This document shows, piece by piece, positions 1-39,508 of a stretch of DNA of 53,734 bases (position 1 is the first letter of the stretch; every line of letters starts with the position of its first letter). The stretch is from Chloroflexota bacterium (GTDB lineage: Bacteria > Chloroflexota > Anaerolineae > UBA2200 > JACIWT01). The DNA is taken from contig JACIWT010000015.1 of NCBI GenBank assembly GCA_014360825.1, positions 1-53,734 of the forward strand, read 5' to 3'. The notes beneath the pieces were generated by a model. It made no database searches, was not told where the DNA came from, and was given only the letters and a program-made list of their open reading frames with translations. The translations under genes were made by a program, and so were the position numbers.

Positions 1-375
1 CACCAAGACTACGCCGTAACGACCGTACTCTTCCAACAAGTCGGTCAAGGGCTTGATGTAAGGCCGGCTGAAGGCGAATACTCCGTTGCTGACGGGTACA
101 GACAGAGGGTAGGCGCGCCAAAGGCCCTCTTCCTGACTGGAGAAGATAACCACCCCCTTACTCTGCCAGTCATATTCAAAATCGAAAAACCTTTCCACAC
201 GCTGACGGTCTGCCTCATGAATGCGGTTGCTGACGCGATCCAACAGGTCGCGGAGCACGAGCCTGACCCTTTCCTTTGCTTGCTGGGATAGGTCCGTATC
301 CAGATAGAGGCTCAAGATTGTCCCGCCTTCTGTTTGGAATTCCAGCAGTTCTTGCAACTCAGCTTCTGTGATCAT
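1..375 (-). CDS. baeRF/Vms1-like release-factor-fold protein (partial, 3' end cut)
   Basis: Only the first 125 codons lie in the window, and the reading frame runs off the left edge without a stop. The start ATG at 375 follows an AAGGAGC ribosome site. The N-terminus has the pattern ILSLYLDTD, then a basic helical stretch and a segment near residue 75 reading GVVIFSSQEEGLW. This resembles the N-terminal domain of bacterial archaeo-eukaryotic release factor-like (baeRF) proteins, related to the Vms1/eRF1 fold and thought to act on ribosome-bound peptidyl-tRNA. It is the last visible gene of the hspR operon, 40 bases downstream of hspR, so heat-shock control is likely. The family call rests on pattern memory, and the diagnostic C-terminal part is outside the window. 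Confidence 0.55.
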   Translation of the reverse strand, partial: MITEAELQELLEFQTEGGTILSLYLDTDLSQQAKERVRLVLRDLLDRVSNRIHEADRQRVERFFDFEYDWQSKGVVIFSSQEEGLWRAYPLSVPVSNGVFAFSRPYIKPLTDLLEEYGRYGVVLV

Positions 376-28278: not shown

Positions 28279-29026
28279 TCGCAAATCGCTATACATCCTG
28301 GGCGTCCGAGTAGATGATGTTACATACAACGAAGCAGTAGTAGAAATAGACTGTTTCGTGCGGAAAAGGACCCCACACCAGATCGTCACCGTTAACCCGG
28401 AGTTCATCATCGCCGCTCGCCGCGATGTCGAATTCCGCCACATTATTAACCATGCGGCGCTTTCTCTGCCGGATGGTGCGGGCCTGCTTTGGGCATCCAG
28501 GTTACTGGGACATCCGCTGCGCGAACGTGTGACTGGTGTAGACATGTTACAACACCTGGCAGATTTGGCAACCCAGCGAGGATATGCTATATTCCTTCTG
28601 GGCGCAGCACCGGGTGTGGCGGCAGAGGCTGCACGTCGGCTGGCAGAACGCTTTCCAAGACTCATGATAGCCGGCACACACGTGGGTTCTCCCGAGCCGA
28701 CAGAAGAACCTGAAATAATCGAAATCGTGCGGTGTGCCGCGCCGGATATGCTTTTTGTAGCCTACGGCGCGCCTAAACAAGATAAGTGGATCGCGCGTAA
28801 TTTGGATCGCTTGGGCGTACCTGTAGCGATGGGCGTCGGCGGAGCGTTCGATTTTATCTCCGGTAGAGCGCAACGGGCGCCAATGTGGATGCGCCGCGCC
28901 GGACTAGAATGGCTGCATCGGCTTTATCGAGAGCCATGGCGTTGGCGAAGGATGCTCGCCCTACCCGCTTTCGCGTGGCTTGTCATCACGGAGAGGATAG
29001 GCCTCGCGCTGAGGAGGGGAAGATGA
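28271..29026 (+). CDS. WecG/TagA/CpsF-family glycosyltransferase (GT26)
   Basis: 251 residues. Family motifs: TVNPEFIIAARRD, SLPDGAGLLWASRLLG, ERVTGVDML, FLLGAAPGVAAEAARRL, and MLFVAYGAPKQDKWIARN with GVGGAFDFISGRAQRAP. These enzymes transfer an N-acetyl-mannosaminuronic or mannosamine residue to a polyprenyl-linked sugar, early in wall or surface polymer assembly. It overlaps GT9 by eight bases and the DUF2207-CHSA gene by four (ATGA), so the repeat protein is translationally coupled to a glycan gene. Confidence 0.92.
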   Translation: MADRKSLYILGVRVDDVTYNEAVVEIDCFVRKRTPHQIVTVNPEFIIAARRDVEFRHIINHAALSLPDGAGLLWASRLLGHPLRERVTGVDMLQHLADLATQRGYAIFLLGAAPGVAAEAARRLAERFPRLMIAGTHVGSPEPTEEPEIIEIVRCAAPDMLFVAYGAPKQDKWIARNLDRLGVPVAMGVGGAFDFISGRAQRAPMWMRRAGLEWLHRLYREPWRWRRMLALPAFAWLVITERIGLALRRGR

Positions 29027-30789
29027 AGAAAACGGCTCTTATTTTGGTTGTGATAGTCGGTTTGCTGGCAGCTGGGTTAGTGCCCGTGCACGCCCAAACC
29101 CCGGTCACGATAAATAAATCCGAATCCTACGTCCGGGTATTAAGTGACGGGCGTTTAGGTATCACCTATAGCCTAGTCTTCACGGAAATGGAGGATGGTC
29201 GAAACGGAATACGCGAGATCGGCCCCTTTGCTGAGCCCCACACAATCTATGAATCTCGCGGGGATGGTCCCGATGGACCGTTCAGTGTCACACTCAGCCC
29301 GTTGTCCAAAGCAGGCACTTACACAGCACAATTTGACAAGCCCACCCGACGCGGAGGGCAGTACACCATTACTATTTCTTATAGCGTAGACCGGACGGTT
29401 TTTGAGCCCACTACTGTGAACGGCAAGGATTACTGGGCCTTGGGTTGGGCTCCTTTCCAATGGGCGTTGCCCATTGAGAGGTTGATAGTGCAGTTTATCC
29501 TCCCGATCGAAATCTCCTCGGATATCCAAACGCCCGAACAAGTAACTGAGGCTGTAGTGGATGCTACCGGCTTGGTGGTCACAGCCGATGCAGATCATTT
29601 CGACCGTTGGGAGTACTTCCCAACACCCGACGAAGCCACGGGCAAGACCTGGCTGTCCATTTATGTCGAGAAAAGAAACGCCCCTGAGGCTTACGTTTTT
29701 CGGCCCGCGTTCTACGTACCCGCTTCGGCGATCGTTGCTCCTCGGCAAACTCCCATTTTGGGTCCTACTAAGGCGCCTTCTGGTCTCCCAACGACTACGC
29801 CACTGCCTTTCTGGGGAGGTCTGAGCCCTCTGGCGCTTCTCTTACTCTGCGGGGTTACTGTGAGTGTGTTGCTGGTGGTGATCGCATTGGTGGTAGTAAT
29901 GTTGCGACGGCGACGCAAGCCAAAGGTCTATGAGCCGCCGGAGATCGAGATCGAAACCTTCGAGATGCCGGGCGTGGTTCCCGACCTAAATGCCATCGAG
30001 GCCGCTTTTTATATGGGCAATTCTGCCAAGACTATCACGCTCATCGTCATGGGTTTGGTGCAGCGCGGTGTGCTGACGGTTATTAATCGCAATCCGCTGC
30101 AGTTAGAAGTTACTAACCCCGATTTGCCTATGAGTGCCTACGAAAGGGCATTGGTGGATGCTATCCTGTACGATGGCACCATTGACCAGGAGAAAATACC
30201 GAGCATCCTCTCCGCAGTAGCAGCAGAACTGCAGCCCAAGATGTGGAACGCCGACCCCGAGGCCACGAGAAAGACCTATCAACGAAAGACTGAAGAAGCC
30301 TGGCAAGAATATGAGCAGGAGCGCAAAACCGTGGTCAAACCCAGGCCGGCCTGGGAGTGGTGGGAACGACCTTATGCACCTTGGGTGATTGTGAGTGAGC
30401 GCTATCAGCCGGTAGCGGCAGAACCATCGGAGTTCGGTAAGGGTCTGCGCGAAGTGGTGTCGCCAGTAGCCCAGGCCGCTGAGCAGATTGTGTCGCCCAT
30501 CGAAAGCCTGGCCGGGGATATTACACGCGGGGTTGAGCGTGTGCTGACCGAGACCGCATCGCGCATCGAGGGGGCAGCGGCACGGCTCACTGGCCGCTCC
30601 GCAGAGGGCATGGCAGGATACGACGCCTGCCATTCCGCATGCCACTCGGCTTGTCACAGCGCCTGCGTCCACGATGCCTGCCACTCCGCTTGCGTCCACG
30701 ATGCCTGCCACAGCGCCTGTCATTCAGCCTGTGTGTGCCACTCGGCGTGCCATTCGGCCTGCCACAGCGCATGTGTAAGCCGGTTTTAG
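29023..30789 (+). CDS. DUF2207 membrane protein with C-terminal Cys-His-Ser-Ala repeat tail
   Basis: 588 residues from ATG 29023 (ATGA overlap with the GT26 gene, GAGGAGGGGA upstream). Signal peptide at 1-23 ending VHA, a DUF2207 extracytoplasmic domain (about 25-260), one membrane helix (about 267-293) followed by RRRRK, then a cytoplasmic region (295-533) with NAIEAAFYMGNSAKTITLIVMGLVQRGVL. From residue 534 the tail is Cys-His-Ser-Ala repeats: nine CHSA units in four blocks, broken by two VHD spacers and one V, 13 Cys and 11 His, ending VSRF. Ordinary DUF2207 proteins, such as the one at 36592-38442, end in Gly-rich tails. By the positive-inside rule the tail faces the cytoplasm. The next gene is a radical SAM/SPASM enzyme, so the tail is probably a modification target. 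Confidence 0.88.
   Translation: MKKTALILVVIVGLLAAGLVPVHAQTPVTINKSESYVRVLSDGRLGITYSLVFTEMEDGRNGIREIGPFAEPHTIYESRGDGPDGPFSVTLSPLSKAGTYTAQFDKPTRRGGQYTITISYSVDRTVFEPTTVNGKDYWALGWAPFQWALPIERLIVQFILPIEISSDIQTPEQVTEAVVDATGLVVTADADHFDRWEYFPTPDEATGKTWLSIYVEKRNAPEAYVFRPAFYVPASAIVAPRQTPILGPTKAPSGLPTTTPLPFWGGLSPLALLLLCGVTVSVLLVVIALVVVMLRRRRKPKVYEPPEIEIETFEMPGVVPDLNAIEAAFYMGNSAKTITLIVMGLVQRGVLTVINRNPLQLEVTNPDLPMSAYERALVDAILYDGTIDQEKIPSILSAVAAELQPKMWNADPEATRKTYQRKTEEAWQEYEQERKTVVKPRPAWEWWERPYAPWVIVSERYQPVAAEPSEFGKGLREVVSPVAQAAEQIVSPIESLAGDITRGVERVLTETASRIEGAAARLTGRSAEGMAGYDACHSACHSACHSACVHDACHSACVHDACHSACHSACVCHSACHSACHSACVSRF
30622..30786 (+). repeat. Coding repeat: Cys-His-Ser-Ala array in four blocks
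   Basis: The last 55 codons of the DUF2207 gene. Blocks hold 3, 1, 2 and 3 CHSA units, each closed by a Cys, with cysteines every fourth residue. Serine is written with TCC, TCG, TCA and AGC in different units, and Cys, His and Ala codons also vary. Selection therefore acts on the peptide, and this is not a recent DNA expansion. Only one 21-base segment (30664-30684 and 30691-30711) is exactly duplicated. Confidence 0.95.
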
Positions 30790-30792
30790 ACC

Positions 30793-32205
30793 ATGATGCC
30801 CGACCTACAGTCTTTTGCCGAAGAACTCGTTTCTCAGACGAGAGATTACATCTATATACGCTCGGAAGATGGGCTGATCATCCTGCGCCCGAACCGTGTC
30901 CATTACCTGAATGCAACAGCAAAGGCCATGCTCTCACGGCTTTACACAGGGGATGTGCCAGACGTTGAGGCCACCGTGCGCGAGATAGCCGCCGAATATG
31001 AGGTAGACGAGGCGCGGGTACGCGAGGATCTGTATCAGTTGCTCGTTGGCATAGCCGCATTGCTCCGAGATGATGTGTGCGGAGCACCTGCTGTCCGGAG
31101 TACCACCTTTGGCAGCCATCGCCGAGATCTGCCGGTCCTTTCCGAGGTGGCATTGACCTATCGTTGCCAGAATCACTGCGTCTTTTGCTATGCCGATTCG
31201 CCGGCTCGTGGGTCGACTGTGAGCGAGATGACAACGGACCAGGTAAAACTGGTGATTGACCGCATCTTTGACGAGGCCCACTGCCCAACGGTCTCCTTCA
31301 CCGGCGGTGAGCCTACGTTGCGCGCCGATTTGCCAGAGCTGGTCCGTTACGCGAAAGCCAAAGGAATGCGCGTCAACCTCATCACCAATGGGCTACGCTG
31401 CTCCCAACCGGCGTATGTGGCAGCCTTGGCTGAGGCGGGGTTGGATTCCGCCCAGGTCAGCCTAGAAGGCGGCAGCGCCGAAATACACGATGCTGTAGTG
31501 CGCCACCCAGGTGCTTTCGAAAAGACAACGCGGGCGGTGAAGGAACTGCGAGCAGCAGGCATACATACTCATACCAACACCACCATCTGCGGCGGTAACC
31601 GTAACCACCTGCTCGAACTCGTGGATTACATAGCCGAAGAGCTGAGATCGGAATATTTTTCTATGAACATGGTCATTCAGACGGGCACAGCACTGGGACA
31701 CCCTGAGGAGGAGATCTCCTACCGAGAGATTGGCCCCATTATCGAGATGGTCCAGACCCACGCTCGCAAAAAAGGGGTCCGTTTTGTCTGGTACTCTCCC
31801 CTGCCCTACTGCATATTCAACCCCATAGCCCATGGGCTGGGCTCCAAATCCTGTGCAGCAGTGGATGGACTGCTTTCAGTGAGCCCGAGTGGGGAAGTGC
31901 TACCCTGCTCTAGTTTCGAGCGAGGCATTGGCAGCCTGCTTCGCAATAGTTTCGCTGAGGTATGGTTCAGCCCGACGGCACTGTACTGGCGACGGAAGGA
32001 ATTCTTACCGCCGGTGTGCCAGAATTGCGAACTCAAGACTATTTGCTGCGGTGCATGTCCCCTCTACTGGGACCAGCGCGGCAACTTCGACGAGCTGGCC
32101 AATGTCGCTACACCTGCTCCGACCTGGCGATCTCTGCTGTGGCAAGTTAAGCGAAGGTGGTGGGGCCGCACGCAGGGCGTTGGCCTGTCAACCCAAAGAA
32201 AGTAG
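30793..32205 (+). CDS. Radical SAM/SPASM maturase with PqqD-like N-terminal domain
   Basis: 470 residues, starting 3 bases after the repeat protein stop and probably coupled to it; ATG 30796 is an alternative start. Residues 18-95 look like a PqqD/RRE winged helix (LIILRPNRVHYLNATAKAML, then helices to LLVGIAALL), the usual precursor-peptide binding domain of RiPP enzymes. The radical SAM core has Cys125, Cys129 and Cys132 (CQNHCVFC) and SFTGGEPTLR. The C-terminal SPASM domain shows SGEVLPC and then CQNCELKTICCGAC, the CX2CX5CX3C pattern for auxiliary iron-sulfur clusters. Such enzymes make thioether or carbon-carbon crosslinks in ribosomal peptides; here the likely substrate is the CHSA tail. 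Confidence 0.9.
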   Translation: MMPDLQSFAEELVSQTRDYIYIRSEDGLIILRPNRVHYLNATAKAMLSRLYTGDVPDVEATVREIAAEYEVDEARVREDLYQLLVGIAALLRDDVCGAPAVRSTTFGSHRRDLPVLSEVALTYRCQNHCVFCYADSPARGSTVSEMTTDQVKLVIDRIFDEAHCPTVSFTGGEPTLRADLPELVRYAKAKGMRVNLITNGLRCSQPAYVAALAEAGLDSAQVSLEGGSAEIHDAVVRHPGAFEKTTRAVKELRAAGIHTHTNTTICGGNRNHLLELVDYIAEELRSEYFSMNMVIQTGTALGHPEEEISYREIGPIIEMVQTHARKKGVRFVWYSPLPYCIFNPIAHGLGSKSCAAVDGLLSVSPSGEVLPCSSFERGIGSLLRNSFAEVWFSPTALYWRRKEFLPPVCQNCELKTICCGACPLYWDQRGNFDELANVATPAPTWRSLLWQVKRRWWGRTQGVGLSTQRK

Positions 32206-32220
32206 GAAGGATGCGACAGC

Positions 32221-33432
32221 ATGGGTGAGAAAATGAACCTGGGGCAGTTCTACAATTTTCTGCGCACAGCGCGCCGTCGCATCGCCGACGTGTATCGCGA
32301 GATCGAGGAAGTGCAATATCAATTCAATGATCTCTACGCTTCGGTAATGCAAAATTGGCAGGAACAAGCAAGCGCTTGCTTGACAATACTGCAACAGCAG
32401 ATCGAAAAAAAGTCATTGCCGCCCTCGCTGGCAGCCCAACTCGAGGGGCGCCTAAAAGAGGAACGGGAGAAATTCGACAAAGAGGTCGCTGATCTATGCC
32501 AGCGGGTGGCTGCCCAGCGGGATACAGCACACGCGGCACTCATGAACGCTCAAGACCAGATCGCGGCTTTGCGCAAATCCAATCCGGAACTGAATGCACG
32601 CGAAGAGGAATTGAAAGCCCGGCGCGTATCGCTGGAGACAGAATTGGCTGCCATCCAAAACAACATCAACCGATTGAACTCATTTCCAGTTGGTTGGATC
32701 CGAAATGCAGGGGCCATTCGCCAGTTGCGACAACAACACGCTGCGCTGCAAAAGAATTTAGAGGGCGTGATCACCGAATTGCGTGCTGTACGCCAGGAAT
32801 GGCAGGAGCGCAAAATGGAAGCGGAGCGGCAACAAGCACAACTGAAGGCCGATTGGCAGGCCGCTAGTATTGAGGCGGCCCAACTTCAGGCCCAATTGGA
32901 TGCCCTCGTTGCCAATCAGGAAGCCATTGTCCTACGCCGGGCAGCAGAAGCGCTGCTGGTCGAGATGAAGGAGGTTCCGCCAGATGCCGGTGAACTATCA
33001 GAACCTCTGCAAAAACTGGTGGAACTGAATACATCCCGCGAAGGCTATCAACGTGGTCTAACCAGCGTAGCGGAAGTTCTAGGCTTGCTCAAAGGCTTAG
33101 GCGAGGGAATGGACCGCTTTATCACCAGCGTTAGCACGGTTTTCGAAGAGCAGCGCCGCTATCAGCTCCCAGATCTGGAGGTGGACATATCCAAGACAGT
33201 GGCAGATTTTCACAACATGTGGGGGGAATTCCAGAGCAAGGTAAAAGATGAGAAGTACTTGGGAGCACGCCCGTTAGAATTCAGCGAGCGCATCCACTAT
33301 TTCATAAAAGCCAAATTAACGGAAGAGACTATCGAACGAATGTTTGAGGACCTGGGTGCATCGCTGAACGCAGCGACGAAGGCATGGGACTCAAAGGATC
33401 TTACAGGACGGAGGAAGAAACGCGGACGATGA
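32221..33432 (+). CDS. Long coiled-coil protein of unknown function
   Basis: 403 residues, no signal peptide or membrane segment. Residues about 15-240 are almost continuous heptad-like helix, rich in Gln, Glu, Ala and Arg, with a break around NSFPVGWIRNAG (about 155-166). The C-terminal 120 residues are mixed and end basic (TGRRKKRGR). The only Cys are two isolated ones. I do not recognise a family. It lies 15 bases after the radical SAM gene and overlaps the next gene by four, so it belongs to this transcription unit and may scaffold the DUF2207 protein or its maturase; that is inference. Confidence 0.75.
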   Translation: MGEKMNLGQFYNFLRTARRRIADVYREIEEVQYQFNDLYASVMQNWQEQASACLTILQQQIEKKSLPPSLAAQLEGRLKEEREKFDKEVADLCQRVAAQRDTAHAALMNAQDQIAALRKSNPELNAREEELKARRVSLETELAAIQNNINRLNSFPVGWIRNAGAIRQLRQQHAALQKNLEGVITELRAVRQEWQERKMEAERQQAQLKADWQAASIEAAQLQAQLDALVANQEAIVLRRAAEALLVEMKEVPPDAGELSEPLQKLVELNTSREGYQRGLTSVAEVLGLLKGLGEGMDRFITSVSTVFEEQRRYQLPDLEVDISKTVADFHNMWGEFQSKVKDEKYLGARPLEFSERIHYFIKAKLTEETIERMFEDLGASLNAATKAWDSKDLTGRRKKRGR

Positions 33433-33920
33433 ACAAAATGCTCGCGATAATAGCCGTGGTCCTAGCCATTTTCTGCTTGATCCTCGGCATCATTTTCTTG
33501 ATCGCCGCCATCGACGCAACTAGCCGCATCCTAACAAGTGGTGCGTTTCTCATCACGGCTGGGCTGCTTCTGGCCTATGGCTTATCGACTCTGCGACGCA
33601 TTGCCGAGACCAGCCCCGAACATTTAGAGACAGGCGCGGTGGAATTGGCCAAGCAGTTAGAAGGCGAGGTTACTGTCGAACAACTACAAGTGGCCTATTC
33701 TATCCCGGCCGCCTTGGCAAAACAGACCCTGGAACGACTCCGAGCGAAGGGCCAATGCCAATTGGAACAGCGGGGTGATTACGCTGTCTATTTGTTCAAA
33801 AGTGTTTTGCCAGCCAAAGCGGTCAAGCGATGTCCCTACTGCGGCAGCGAATTCGCGGTGCGCAGTGCGGTGCGAAAGTGCCCCAATTGCGGTGCTGCAT
33901 TGGAGATCACGAAAGAATAG
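33429..33920 (+). CDS. Small membrane protein with winged-helix-like and zinc-ribbon parts
   Basis: 163 residues from ATG 33429 (ATGA overlap). Two hydrophobic helices (about 4-27 and 35-52) form a hairpin, followed by a helical region that looks like a winged helix (about 78-122, VTVEQLQVAYSIPAALAKQTLERLRAKGQ). A zinc ribbon with CPYCGSEF and CPNCGAAL (about 132-158) ends the protein. No named family recognised. It may sense or present something at the membrane, and its metal site would be cytoplasmic like the CHSA tail. Fourth gene of the candidate system. Confidence 0.75.
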   Translation: MNKMLAIIAVVLAIFCLILGIIFLIAAIDATSRILTSGAFLITAGLLLAYGLSTLRRIAETSPEHLETGAVELAKQLEGEVTVEQLQVAYSIPAALAKQTLERLRAKGQCQLEQRGDYAVYLFKSVLPAKAVKRCPYCGSEFAVRSAVRKCPNCGAALEITKE

Positions 33921-33942: not shown

Positions 33943-35847
33943 ATGAAAAGAATAGCCCTCTTTGCGGGCGTATATGTTGTTATAACAGCAGTATGCCAGA
34001 TTAGTTGCAGATTACATCCACTGTCCCCTATCCAACCCCAGCGTTCCACGCCGACGCCTCAGCCTCTCCTCGAGAGCCCAATGCGAGATTTGCATGATGT
34101 TGCCCGCCGCCTGGACCGCGTGGACGGTGGGGCTCTTGCCTCAAGATCGGCGTCTCGCATCTACAGAGTAGGTGATCACGAGTTATTTACCGTGATGGAT
34201 CTCGACTCAACTGGTGTCTTCACGATCACCGCAGAACTGCAGGCGATCGGCGAGCACATTTATTTGTGGGTGCAAGATGACCTGGCAACCTTGCCTAACG
34301 ACGTCCAACAGGCAGTGGAGTTCTTCGATGAACACATTTATCCCACAGATCACTACTACTTTGGTTGGGAACCAAACCCCGGCCTGGACGAAGATCCGCG
34401 TATTCATGTGCTGTGCGCCGACTTATCCGGGGCTTCGGGTTACTTTTACAGCGCTAACCAGTATTTACGTGCTGTCAATCCATACAGCAACGAACGGGAA
34501 ATGCTCTATATCAACATCCAGGGCCGCTCGCCGGGCAGCGATGCATTCAACGCCACGCTGGCACATGAATTTCAACATCTGATTCACTGGGCCCAGGATG
34601 CGAATGAAGATGCCTGGGTGAACGAAGGTTGCTCCGAATTGGCCATACAACTCAATGGCCTGCCCACAAGTGGACATGAGCGTGAATTTGCTCGGCAATC
34701 AGATACTCAACTTAACGCCTGGGGCACAGTAGAGAGCACAGCACTGCCACATTATGGAGCATCGTACCTTTTCATGCGCTACTTTGCTCGCCGCTTTGGG
34801 CCAGATGCAATACGCCTCCTCGTGGCACGGCCCGAAAACGGCATCGCCGGGTTCAACGCAGTGCTCTCCGAGTTGGGAACAGGCCTGATTTTCGAAGATG
34901 TATTCGCCGATTGGGTCATCGCCAACTGGCTTGATGACGCAACGCTGGCCAATGGTGCCTACGGCTATGGCGAACCGCTTGGGATAACCCTGGAGCCTTC
35001 AGCGGTCATTAGGGACTATCCCAATGAGGGCACAGGCACAGTACACCAGTACGCTGCCGATTACATTGTGCTGCAGGGCATCACCAGCCCCCTGGAGATC
35101 GAATTCCAAGGCCAGACTACAGCGAAATTGATCCCGACTGAGGCTCCCAGTGGACGGTACCTGTGGTGGTCTAACCGAGGTGACGCAATCGACAGTACGC
35201 TGACGCGGGCTTTTGATCTCACAAGCCTGACCACGGCGACCTTAGAATTCTCGATGTGGTATGACATCGAAGCAGGGTGGGATTACGCCTACGTCGAGGT
35301 TTCAACCGATGGAGGCAACCGGTGGAATGTACTAACGGGGACACACACAACCATGTGGAACCCCGTCGGCAATAGTTTCGGCCCGGGCTATACCGGCACA
35401 TCCGGCCGCGACTTTGATGCATGGGATAAGCCTGCCTCGGCAAGATGGGTGCAGGAGCGAATAGATCTGACACCCTATGCAGGGAAACAAGTGCTCATCC
35501 GCTTCGAGTATATCACCGATGACCAAGTAAATGGCCATGGCTTTTGCTTAGATGACATCCGGATTCCGGAATTGGGCTACAGGGATGACGTGGAGGATGA
35601 GAACAGCGACTGGATCGCTCAAGGATTCATGCGCACCGACAACACTGTGCCCCAGCGTTATCTAGTACAGGTCGTTATACCTGGTCTTAAGATGCCGGTA
35701 CAACGGGTATGGGCAGAGAATGGACTGGCCCATCTAGCACTTGAGGGACCAGAATCGAGTGTGCAAGAAGCAGTATTGGTTATATCAGCCCTGGCCCCGT
35801 TCACAGTGGAGTCAGCGCCTTACTGCTATTCTGTGCAGAGGCGCTGA
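33943..35847 (+). CDS. Secreted HExxH metalloprotease, M6/immune-inhibitor-A-like
   Basis: 634 residues from ATG 33943; the longer frame runs through the previous gene. An N-terminal hydrophobic helix (about 4-20) with Cys nearby may be a signal or lipoprotein anchor, followed by a Pro/Thr spacer. The zinc site is LAHEFQHLIHW (His208, Glu209, His212) with downstream WVNEGCSE giving a probable third ligand (Glu228). The C-terminal half has a beta-sandwich like that of immune-inhibitor-A peptidases (LEFSMWYDIEAGWDYAYVEVSTDGG, GKQVLIRFEYITDD). It follows the zinc-ribbon gene by 22 bases and ends at a strong terminator. It could process surface proteins, including the DUF2207 ectodomain, but that link is only positional. 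Confidence 0.82.
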   Translation: MKRIALFAGVYVVITAVCQISCRLHPLSPIQPQRSTPTPQPLLESPMRDLHDVARRLDRVDGGALASRSASRIYRVGDHELFTVMDLDSTGVFTITAELQAIGEHIYLWVQDDLATLPNDVQQAVEFFDEHIYPTDHYYFGWEPNPGLDEDPRIHVLCADLSGASGYFYSANQYLRAVNPYSNEREMLYINIQGRSPGSDAFNATLAHEFQHLIHWAQDANEDAWVNEGCSELAIQLNGLPTSGHEREFARQSDTQLNAWGTVESTALPHYGASYLFMRYFARRFGPDAIRLLVARPENGIAGFNAVLSELGTGLIFEDVFADWVIANWLDDATLANGAYGYGEPLGITLEPSAVIRDYPNEGTGTVHQYAADYIVLQGITSPLEIEFQGQTTAKLIPTEAPSGRYLWWSNRGDAIDSTLTRAFDLTSLTTATLEFSMWYDIEAGWDYAYVEVSTDGGNRWNVLTGTHTTMWNPVGNSFGPGYTGTSGRDFDAWDKPASARWVQERIDLTPYAGKQVLIRFEYITDDQVNGHGFCLDDIRIPELGYRDDVEDENSDWIAQGFMRTDNTVPQRYLVQVVIPGLKMPVQRVWAENGLAHLALEGPESSVQEAVLVISALAPFTVESAPYCYSVQRR

Positions 35848-36591: not shown

Positions 36592-38442
36592 TCATCCGGC
36601 ACCACCGCCACCACCGCCTCCGCCTCCGCCGCCACCACCGCCGCCGCCGCTGAAGCCACCACCGCCATGTGAACTGGGCGCGCTGGACAGAGTGCTTGAT
36701 GCCGAGTTCAGCATGGCAAAAAACCCATCACTCATGCTCTGGAGACTGCCACTCAAACCGTCGCTGATGGATTGTAACAACGGGATGCCCCCACTCTCAA
36801 CACCCCCTCCGCCACTGCTACCCACACCAGTGCCACCATAGTGGATAGGACGGTAGGGATAATACCAGGTAGGTGCTGGAGTGCCCACGGCAGCGAACTT
36901 GTTCACCCAACTGCGCTCCAAGCCGAAGGCGATAGCATAGCCCAGATACTTCTCGAAGATATCCTGCGCTGTTTTCAGGTCCGTATAGTGTTCGATGTGT
37001 TCGAGATAGCGCTTAAAGGCCCTCCACTTGGCAGCGGCCATTGCGCCCAGTTCTGTTTTGCGAGGCATGAAGCGCCCCAGGATGATCATAGCCACAGCAA
37101 CAACACCTAAGCCAAGGGAAGGGCAAATGCCCGTGTCCATGTAATCAGACAACAACAAGATCGCGCCCAAAACCATCGCACTGGCAACTATGAATAACCC
37201 AATGCCTAATCCCGTATATAAATTACGGATATTCTGTGGGCTCTCTAGGAAAAACCCTGCTTTCACGACAGCCCGGTACATCTTTTTCTGCAAGCCCGGG
37301 ATAGCAGTATAGAATTTTTCCTGTAGATCCGAGAGATACACCCATTCCCGCCCACGAAACAGCCTGGAGAGCAAATCTTCCTCGTAGTCACGCAGTTCAT
37401 CCTCGCCAGTTGTGCGCTCGAACAAAAAATCTCGCTTCACGCCAAGGCCAAGGAAGCCTTTTTCTTGTTCCTCGGTGATCTTAATATGGCCACGACGCGC
37501 CAGATCCACAATGGTAGCCACGATGTCCTGCATATCTGCCCTCTCATCCAGGAGAGCCCCAGCCAAGCCAGGTGGCAACTCGTCAGGCGGCTCAGAGAGA
37601 TATTCGGCAACGAGGCCGGCCGTTTTGTCGCGTCCCCGGGTGTACCAGAGAACCAGTAACAGTGCTAGCCCAAACACTGGGATCAGCACGCCGAGGAACA
37701 CGCCGATTAAATTGACCAAAGGTCGGTATTTTTCATCGTATTCGGCCTTGCGATCCTCTGCTATCTGCCAGGATGGCGCCTGTCCCTGTACTACACCATG
37801 CGGGAACTGCACGCGTACTTCCAGTTCTTGTCCTGGAGGGATCTGTCCGGCCACAAAACGCACTGTGCGCCCATCTATAACTTCGTATTTGGCATTGGCT
37901 CCATAACTTGCTACTTTCAGCAAATCGGGTTGAAAGTGGGATGGTAGATGCACAGTCACCACTGATGAGTTCACTGGAAAATCGCGGTCTGGGAAGACCG
38001 CCTTCCACCACAGTTGATCGCCACCAGGGTAAAAGCGCAACCCACCCTTCACAGTGTAGCCGATAGTGAATGTGCGTGAGGCATTGGAAGTGTAAGGGTA
38101 ATACCAGGTGATGCGGAAGTTGCCATCCTCCTGTCCGGTTTTGAAGGTGTACTCAGACTCCTCGCCGGGTCGATATTGCGCGCTACCCTCGCTTACTGAC
38201 ACATCCGTGATATCCTCCAGTCGGTTGGTGGGAATATTGCGGTAAGCGAAATGAAAGGATCCCTGGGTGAAAACAAACTTCTGCGTTTCTACGATACGGA
38301 TATCAGAGTTGGGCAAAACAGTAATATCAACGTTGATATACTCCCAATAATATGTCTTACCTTGGGCACGTGCTAATGGCACAAGGGTCACAAAAAGAGC
38401 CCCTGTGATCAAGAGAAGCTTGAGCAATTTATACGGGCTCAT
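36592..38442 (-). CDS. DUF2207 membrane protein with ordinary Gly-rich tail
   Basis: 616 residues from ATG 38442, preceded by AAGGAGGG; the frame can be extended 44 residues without support. Signal peptide (ends ARA), a DUF2207 ectodomain with ITVLPNSDIRIVETQKFVF and FAYRNIPT, a membrane helix (about 255-280), a cytoplasmic domain with GALLDERADMQDIVATIVDLARRGHIKI, two more helices (about 405-455), and a tail ending HGGGGFSGGGGG and further Gly. This tail is the normal DUF2207 end. It is the natural comparison for the CHSA-tailed paralogue. Located between the M19 dipeptidase and efp on the same strand, 93 bases from each. Confidence 0.9.
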   Translation of the reverse strand: MSPYKLLKLLLITGALFVTLVPLARAQGKTYYWEYINVDITVLPNSDIRIVETQKFVFTQGSFHFAYRNIPTNRLEDITDVSVSEGSAQYRPGEESEYTFKTGQEDGNFRITWYYPYTSNASRTFTIGYTVKGGLRFYPGGDQLWWKAVFPDRDFPVNSSVVTVHLPSHFQPDLLKVASYGANAKYEVIDGRTVRFVAGQIPPGQELEVRVQFPHGVVQGQAPSWQIAEDRKAEYDEKYRPLVNLIGVFLGVLIPVFGLALLLVLWYTRGRDKTAGLVAEYLSEPPDELPPGLAGALLDERADMQDIVATIVDLARRGHIKITEEQEKGFLGLGVKRDFLFERTTGEDELRDYEEDLLSRLFRGREWVYLSDLQEKFYTAIPGLQKKMYRAVVKAGFFLESPQNIRNLYTGLGIGLFIVASAMVLGAILLLSDYMDTGICPSLGLGVVAVAMIILGRFMPRKTELGAMAAAKWRAFKRYLEHIEHYTDLKTAQDIFEKYLGYAIAFGLERSWVNKFAAVGTPAPTWYYPYRPIHYGGTGVGSSGGGGVESGGIPLLQSISDGLSGSLQSMSDGFFAMLNSASSTLSSAPSSHGGGGFSGGGGGGGGGGGGGGGGAG

Positions 38443-38533
38443 GTGCGCCCTCCTTAGTTGAGAAATATGGAATCGGAAAACACACGTAATTGTATCCTGA
38501 ATCATTTCTTTCCACAAACGGCCAAGGGTTGCT

Positions 38534-39508
38534 TCAACCCACGATCTGCCGAAACACCCGCAACCAGTTGCCACCCAGGAATTTGCGAATGTCTTCTTCG
38601 GAGTAGCCCCGTTCGGCCATGCCCAACGTGATCAGGGGTAGCGAGGCCGCATCTTTGATCTCTCGTACGCCTTCCTCATAGCCGTCGAAGTCTGACCCCA
38701 GCCCCACGTGATCAATTCCGGCTACCTTGACGATATGGTCCACGTGGTCGAGCAGTTTTGCCAGAGTAGCCTGTTCCTTATCTTCGGCCACAAAACTGGC
38801 AACGAAAGTGACGCCTACGACCCCACCACTCCTAGCGATACCCTCCAGTTGCTCATCAGTGAGATTGCGCTGGTGCGGGCAAACGGCATAGGCATTGGCA
38901 TGAGAAGCTACCACTGGCCCTTGGCTGATGGCCAGCACGTCCCGCACGCCCGCAGGGGCCAAGTGCGCTACGTCCACCATAACGCCCAGGCGGTTTAATT
39001 CCTCAATCAGTTTGACGCCAAACTCAGTGAGCCCCCCGCCAGTGCGTTTCTCTCCTAGACCGTCGGCGGCTTGGTTGCGGAAGTTCCAGGTGATCCCTAC
39101 ATTGCGCAAGCCAAGTTGATACAATAAACGCAACACACCCAAGTCACCTTCTAATGCCTCGGCGCCTTCGAGGCCTAGAACTCCTGCTACTTTACCCCTC
39201 CGCTTGGCCTCCTCGATGTCAGCAGCGCGGGTAGCGAGAAGCAGGCGATCGGCATTCGCCTCGGCTTCGCGTTGGAAGAGGTCGATCAAGCGCAGCGCTT
39301 GCCAGGTAGCACGGGCGGGCAAATATTCGGGAGCGATGTACAAGGCGAATATCTGTGCAGTTACACCCCCTTCCGTAAGGCGCGGCAGATCCACGTGACC
39401 TCTCTCCGATCGCTCACCCAATTTCCAATTGCCTTCTTGAATCTCAAGGAGAGTATCACAATGCCCATCGAAGATGATCGCGTCCCGATGCAGTGACTGT
39501 GTGTCCAA
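38534..39508 (-). CDS. Membrane dipeptidase-like peptidase M19
   Basis: 324 residues from a TTG start at 39508, four bases after GGGAGGA; the long frame to 39751 crosses the divergent intergenic region and is unsupported. Zinc-site motifs: FDGHCDTL (His-x-Asp), GLEGAEAL (bridging Glu), DVAHLAPAGVRDVL, ASHANAYAVCPHQRNL, and GLGSDFDGYE near the end. Family members hydrolyse dipeptides with relaxed stereochemistry. Cytoplasmic here, as no signal peptide is seen. The gene is divergent from the polysaccharide cluster. Confidence 0.9.
   Translation of the reverse strand: MDTQSLHRDAIIFDGHCDTLLEIQEGNWKLGERSERGHVDLPRLTEGGVTAQIFALYIAPEYLPARATWQALRLIDLFQREAEANADRLLLATRAADIEEAKRRGKVAGVLGLEGAEALEGDLGVLRLLYQLGLRNVGITWNFRNQAADGLGEKRTGGGLTEFGVKLIEELNRLGVMVDVAHLAPAGVRDVLAISQGPVVASHANAYAVCPHQRNLTDEQLEGIARSGGVVGVTFVASFVAEDKEQATLAKLLDHVDHIVKVAGIDHVGLGSDFDGYEEGVREIKDAASLPLITLGMAERGYSEEDIRKFLGGNWLRVFRQIVG

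Follow-up and report, generated by a model that had tools for sequence, protein, structure and literature searches.

Radical SAM chemistry on peptides has mostly been encountered on short secreted or cofactor-forming peptides. One SPASM enzyme can introduce many modifications, as exemplified by TvgB, which acts iteratively on TVGG repeats (PMC9062424). Ala can serve as a thioether acceptor, as in the Cys-to-Ala alpha-thioethers of sactipeptides, and the radical SAM enzyme QhpD forms thioethers on a protein (PMC8326336). Membrane proteins enter this picture through the TIGR04222 family, whose Cys-rich C-termini have been associated computationally with MNIO enzymes (PMC12452194). The first-pass annotation of the locus described here knew of no characterised example of its architecture. 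This is still true in the literature searched, where work on DUF2207 or Chloroflexota with radical SAM enzymes yielded no tail-enzyme pair, although the computational TIGR04222/MNIO precedent exists and had gone unnamed (PMC12452194).

The locus lies in a window of 53,734 nucleotides, the whole stretch of DNA that was analysed, from a Chloroflexota bacterium of the class Anaerolineae (Table 1). The ATG of its DUF2207-type gene (29023) overlaps the stop of a WecG/TagA-family gene, and its own stop is the TAG at 30787-30789. The earlier description of the product as a signal-peptide-bearing DUF2207 membrane protein was borne out, with a marginal pass for PF09972 (25.4 bits, gathering cut-off 24.4); the TIGR04222 score of 33.8 bits lies under the cut-off of 43. 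In the AF2 model the beta domain and the winged-helix-like (wHTH-like) domain have a pLDDT of about 75-95 and the tail one of <45. No sequence relatives of the protein were found in the PDB. Foldseek matches of the ectodomain (M1 aminopeptidases, the inter-alpha-inhibitor heavy chain and oligosaccharyltransferase subunits) were solely to beta domains, with TM-scores of about 0.2-0.25 of the query, and were uninformative as to its function. Hydropathy predicts that the tail is on the cytoplasmic side, in agreement with the original proposal, and it would hence be accessible.

Table 1. Coordinates of the features discussed (window positions, residues of the 588-aa protein, or positions in other loci).
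Feature	Position	Strand	Basis or context
DUF2207-type membrane protein, 588 aa	29023..30789	+	Pfam, hydropathy, AF2
Signal peptide of DUF2207-type protein	residues about 1-23		588-aa protein
Extracytoplasmic beta domain of DUF2207-type protein	residues 28-233		AF2
Single TM of DUF2207-type protein	residues about 269-296, RRRRK next		hydropathy
Cytosolic wHTH-like domain of DUF2207-type protein	residues 322-407		AF2
Long helical linker before tail of DUF2207-type protein	residues 475-523		
C-terminal tail, nine CHSA units, 13 Cys, 11 His; proposed substrate	30622..30786	+	
PqqD(RRE)-radical SAM-SPASM enzyme, 470 aa; proposed tail maturase	30793..32205	+	
Coiled-coil protein, 403 aa	32221..33432	+	third cassette gene; no Pfam family
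163-aa protein, N-terminal hydrophobic segments and C-terminal zinc ribbon	33429..33920	+	fourth cassette gene
Secreted InhA-like MAM-domain protein, HEFQHLIH metalloprotease-like motif	33949-35847	+	
Canonical DUF2207 protein, Gly-rich Cys-free tail	36592-38574	-	6-8 kb from the CHSA-tailed one
Second enzyme-family copies lacking CX3CX2C (examples)	L104 6201-7341; L127 5747-7133		(CA)n loci

The repeat, Cys and His counts first given for the tail are correct; the repeat itself occupies the final ~50 residues, and the 55-residue stretch includes two or three non-repeat residues at each end. Across the 15 genomes compared, amino-acid identity in the tail is 96.7% and few positions vary; the corresponding values are 52% for the extracellular part of the protein, 62% for the TM-cytosolic part and 43% for the linker next to the tail. 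Synonymous sites of the tail, by contrast, are nearly saturated (pS 0.79). The repeat copies have mixed codons, and Ser is kept while its codons alternate between TCN and AGY. Mixed codons and such identity over nearly saturated synonymous sites mean that the repeat is maintained by selection at the protein level and not by recent duplication; the codons and the cross-genome identity likewise exclude chance or recent tandem expansion. A reversed-pattern control for CHSA gave zero matches in 396 genomes. CHSA-like matches in viral contigs (L243-L245) proved to be false positives, arising from an out-of-frame reading of a phage PVTQ repeat, which in another frame gives CHSA repeats and is a pitfall for pattern searches.

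Downstream of the tail gene, three bases (acc) separate its stop from the ATG of the enzyme at 30793, and the coordinates, reading frame, CX3CX2C and CX2CX5CX3C motifs and PqqD-like domain claimed for this neighbour were all confirmed. Pfam scores are 103 bits for Radical_SAM, 33.3 for SPASM and 32.3 for the PqqD-like RRE domain (PF05402, cut-off 23.4). The radical SAM core, C125/129/132, recurs in each of the 88 high-scoring family members that were examined, and the SPASM motifs are CX12GX4C (C354-G367-C372) and CX2CX5CX3C (C409/412/418/422). Compared with the SPASM pattern CX9-15GX4C-gap-CX2CX5CX3C-gap-C, the enzyme has the first six Cys but not the last; an extra Cys, C340, is invariant and may substitute for it. 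The predicted structure is of modest quality (pLDDT 68, pTM 0.65), with low confidence in the SPASM region, and contains an RRE fold of three strands and three helices at residues 20-91 as well as a TIM barrel. Foldseek matches this model best to SuiB, SkfB, CteB and TigE, with PqqE and anSME lower, so that the matched structures are mostly SPASM enzymes acting on peptides or proteins. The best-scoring NCBIfam models of radical SAM subfamilies all stay under their cut-offs, including the HxsC-type maturase models (NF038332, 103.4 of 500; TIGR03977, 80.1 of 267.9) and the ACGX model (TIGR04340, 94.8 of 400), and the enzyme therefore looks like a member of an unnamed subfamily.

How general is the pair? 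Sampling covered the Chloroflexota, with 396 genomes drawn from the class, plus one GTDB contig scan with patterns from the window enzyme. A search with alignment A1 at E 1e-60 placed the enzyme family in 107 of the 396 genomes. The CHSA tail occurs in 36 genomes, all 36 of which have the enzyme family. A sister clade of enzymes pairs with a second tail, CACACACAGCACACAGGGR, which ends CACAGCACA(CA)GGGR and contains no His; this (CA)n tail is present in 69 of the 396 genomes, 66 of them among the 107, and in the three apparent exceptions a divergent family member adjoins the tail gene. One of these three (G392) additionally has part of a second family member immediately upstream. Several genomes with the (CA)n type (G032, G212 and G350) consist of a single contig, so cultured isolates may exist. 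Co-occurrence of either tail with the enzyme gives a Fisher p of 7e-78, a value not corrected for phylogeny.

Adjacency was the check proposed at the outset, and CHSA tails mostly lacking a neighbouring enzyme were not what was found: 33 of the 37 distinct tails have the enzyme gene immediately downstream, three are truncated at the end of a contig and one (G063) is separated, making 33 of 34 testable tails adjacent. Adjacency is not absolute, as tail and enzyme are on different contigs in G063, away from contig ends, and the (CA)n tail and enzyme are on different contigs with unrelated neighbours in genomes of family f7 (L198 and L199, that is G103 and G172). The independent GTDB scan returned 18 close loci, all from Chloroflexota/Anaerolineae MAGs, with the tail-enzyme pair present wherever the contig reaches upstream. 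The CHSA tail protein and the enzyme are thus confirmed as a conserved unit across a large set of Chloroflexota, most of them uncultured.

In a maximum-likelihood tree of 87 enzymes, a split with 100/100 support separates a clade whose tails, where found, are all CHSA (33 loci) from one whose tails, where found, are all (CA)n (31 loci); tree rows without a tail are mostly at contig edges or have the tail gene elsewhere in the genome. Enzyme clade and tail type show no mismatch, even in the five genomes (G275, G348, G379, G389 and G405) that each have both tails and both enzyme types. This clade-by-tail matching is the strongest sign of an interaction between enzyme and tail, and suggests direct recognition. 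G405, from a different class within the phylum, carries the CHSA and (CA)n systems in one genome (L196 and L197), possibly through transfer.

The (CA)n system of the sister clade occurs in two gene orders. PF09972 was not detected in the tail proteins tested, one of type B and one of type C. Hydropathy gives one TM followed by Arg/Lys in the CHSA and (CA)n type B proteins and three TM in type C, which would place the tail in the cytosol in all three alike. A second copy of the enzyme family usually lies beside the (CA)n pair, and 37 of 38 lower-scoring copies have no CX3CX2C; the exception is a 42-bit match, probably an ordinary unrelated radical SAM protein. An RRE-like N-terminus is retained in the two CX3CX2C-less copies whose sequences were inspected in full, and these copies look like pseudo-radical-SAM partners of the (CA)n system. 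In type C loci a small zinc-ribbon protein ending YCGASYQIEEAPKW or similar comes just before the enzyme (L127 3735-4139, L128, L132-L134 and L136); it differs from the zinc-ribbon product of the fourth gene in CHSA loci. Three further loci (L203, L204 and L205) have two different membrane proteins in tandem, each with a (CA)n-GGGR tail.

Homologues of the 403-aa protein follow the enzyme in those CHSA loci that extend that far and were found in none of 16 (CA)n loci checked. The 163-aa protein has homologues in nearly all CHSA loci with sufficient downstream sequence, and in many that reach further the InhA-like protein comes after the cassette. No transporter or leader peptidase marking a classical RiPP system was found in the cassette. 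Canonical DUF2207 proteins of the same genomes mostly have Gly-rich ends without a Cys repeat, and relatives of the same order often carry a canonical and a CHSA-tailed protein near each other. They serve as a negative control: no radical SAM enzyme of the tail type lies beside the canonical proteins in the flanks examined. Tail and enzyme therefore come paired, and the scaffold alone brings no enzyme.

Such pairing might in principle reflect mere co-inheritance within a conserved neighbourhood, the repeat being a structural linker, and the upstream glycosyltransferase genes are indeed also kept in the nearest relatives. However, the CHSA cassette remains where these upstream genes have gone (L114, L118, L149 and others), it is present in a different class (G405), the arrangement recurs with a second tail type, a sister clade and two gene orders, and conservation of the tail far exceeds that of the protein bearing it. 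This account is already largely refuted and is very improbable.

A second alternative leaves the Cys and His free: the tail would be a metal- or cluster-binding appendage, and the enzyme would make a cofactor or act on a molecule that the tail carries or senses. The abundance of Cys and His in the tail (13 and 11), the zinc-ribbon protein within the cassette and the resemblance of the enzyme to the cofactor enzymes AhbD, NirJ and PqqE, though far under their cut-offs, fit this idea, and free or metal-binding Cys would yield equal sequence conservation. It is nevertheless unlikely given that the enzyme has a PqqD-type RRE, that its top structural matches are peptide maturases, and that the strict clade-by-tail matching suggests direct recognition. 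The pairing of His-free (CA)n tails with a sister enzyme also speaks against it, and shows that the wider system can do without His.

The Cys-rich tail is instead probably the substrate of the neighbouring enzyme. A tail predicted to be cytosolic next to a soluble enzyme with a peptide-binding domain makes modification of the tail in place the economical reading. The enzyme would act from the cytosol on a membrane protein that is inserted or being inserted, its N-terminal RRE holding the helical linker before the tail as the equivalent of a RiPP leader, and its catalytic domain would modify the repeats iteratively, one by one. The likeliest chemistry would be a thioether linking the sulphur of Cys with a neighbouring residue, with Ala (or Cys itself) as the best candidate acceptor because Cys and Ala are the sole residues common to the CHSA and (CA)n repeats. 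On the precedents of TvgB, the sactipeptides and QhpD, modification of some kind is very likely, and the thioether is a tentative assignment that falls just short of an even call.

Other radical chemistry on the tail, overlapping with this proposal, is also conceivable: epimerisation of alternating residues, oxidation of Ala or His, dehydrogenation or C-C links. Cys and Ala alternate in the sister tail, the top fold matches include TigE and SuiB, which forms a C-C link, and the chemistry of the SPASM superfamily is varied (PMC8326336, PMC9062424). Yet in both tails no conserved feature is as regular as Cys, and the thioether-forming SkfB and CteB match about equally well, which leaves a non-thioether product possible though rather doubtful.

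Whichever bond is formed, what would the product be for? The modified tail would stay attached as a permanent membrane appendage, probably with a redox, metal or signalling role, although none of the neighbouring genes indicates a particular pathway. Taken as a whole, the system may tentatively be described, at somewhat under even confidence, as a membrane-protein family with an in-place thioether-bridged or otherwise radical-modified cytoplasmic tail in at least two chemotypes (CHSA and CA-GGGR), the second of which would have the help of a catalytically inactive radical SAM paralogue; such a tail would be an appendage conserved across many Anaerolineae families and not a secreted natural product. 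Either tail type is present in about a quarter of the sampled genomes of the class. If the proposal is true, a membrane protein whose modified tail hardly varies would point to a housekeeping role for radical SAM chemistry and broaden the range of RiPP substrates. The CHSA genes form a simple, testable pair, for which nature supplies both a second chemotype and controls that lack the tail.

Several described systems share parts of this arrangement. Canonical DUF2207 proteins (PF09972) likewise have a signal peptide, an N-terminal DUF2207 domain, a membrane segment and a cytosolic part, but their tails are Gly-rich and Cys-free and they have no radical SAM neighbour. The HxsA/HxsBC and ACGX systems (TIGR03977/NF038332, TIGR04340) also combine a short repeat, His-Xaa-Ser or ACGX, with a radical SAM enzyme; the window enzyme, however, scores 80-103 and 95 bits with their models, against cut-offs of 268/500 and 400. 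QhpD and anSME resemble the proposed maturase in being SPASM enzymes whose substrates are proteins and not short peptides, and QhpD makes thioethers; what they modify, however, is a small dehydrogenase subunit and the active sites of sulfatases, not the repeat tails of membrane proteins. The TIGR04222/MNIO association, the closest idea in print, is alike in its related membrane protein, Cys-rich C-terminus and adjacent modifying-enzyme gene (PMC12452194), whereas its tails are Ser/Gly-rich with scattered Cys, are proposed to be periplasmic and come mostly from Actinomycetota (PMC12452194). An MNIO enzyme is excluded from tail modification here, as PF05114 has no match in the source genome. Unlike sactipeptides and ranthipeptides, which have a short leader-bearing precursor that is released, the proposed substrate is the end of a 588-residue membrane protein. 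There is a further likeness to the RRE radical SAM/SPASM maturases SkfB, CteB, SuiB and TigE/TvgB, which share the RRE, radical SAM and SPASM domains, provide the best fold matches and are similarly associated in the genome with an adjacent repeat-rich or Cys-containing candidate substrate. They differ in that the substrate proposed here is the cytosolic C-terminus of an integral membrane protein of ~590 residues, nearly invariant between taxa and encoded in a cassette without export or leader peptidase genes. The system works like an RRE-SPASM RiPP system, yet its precursor is neither short nor released.
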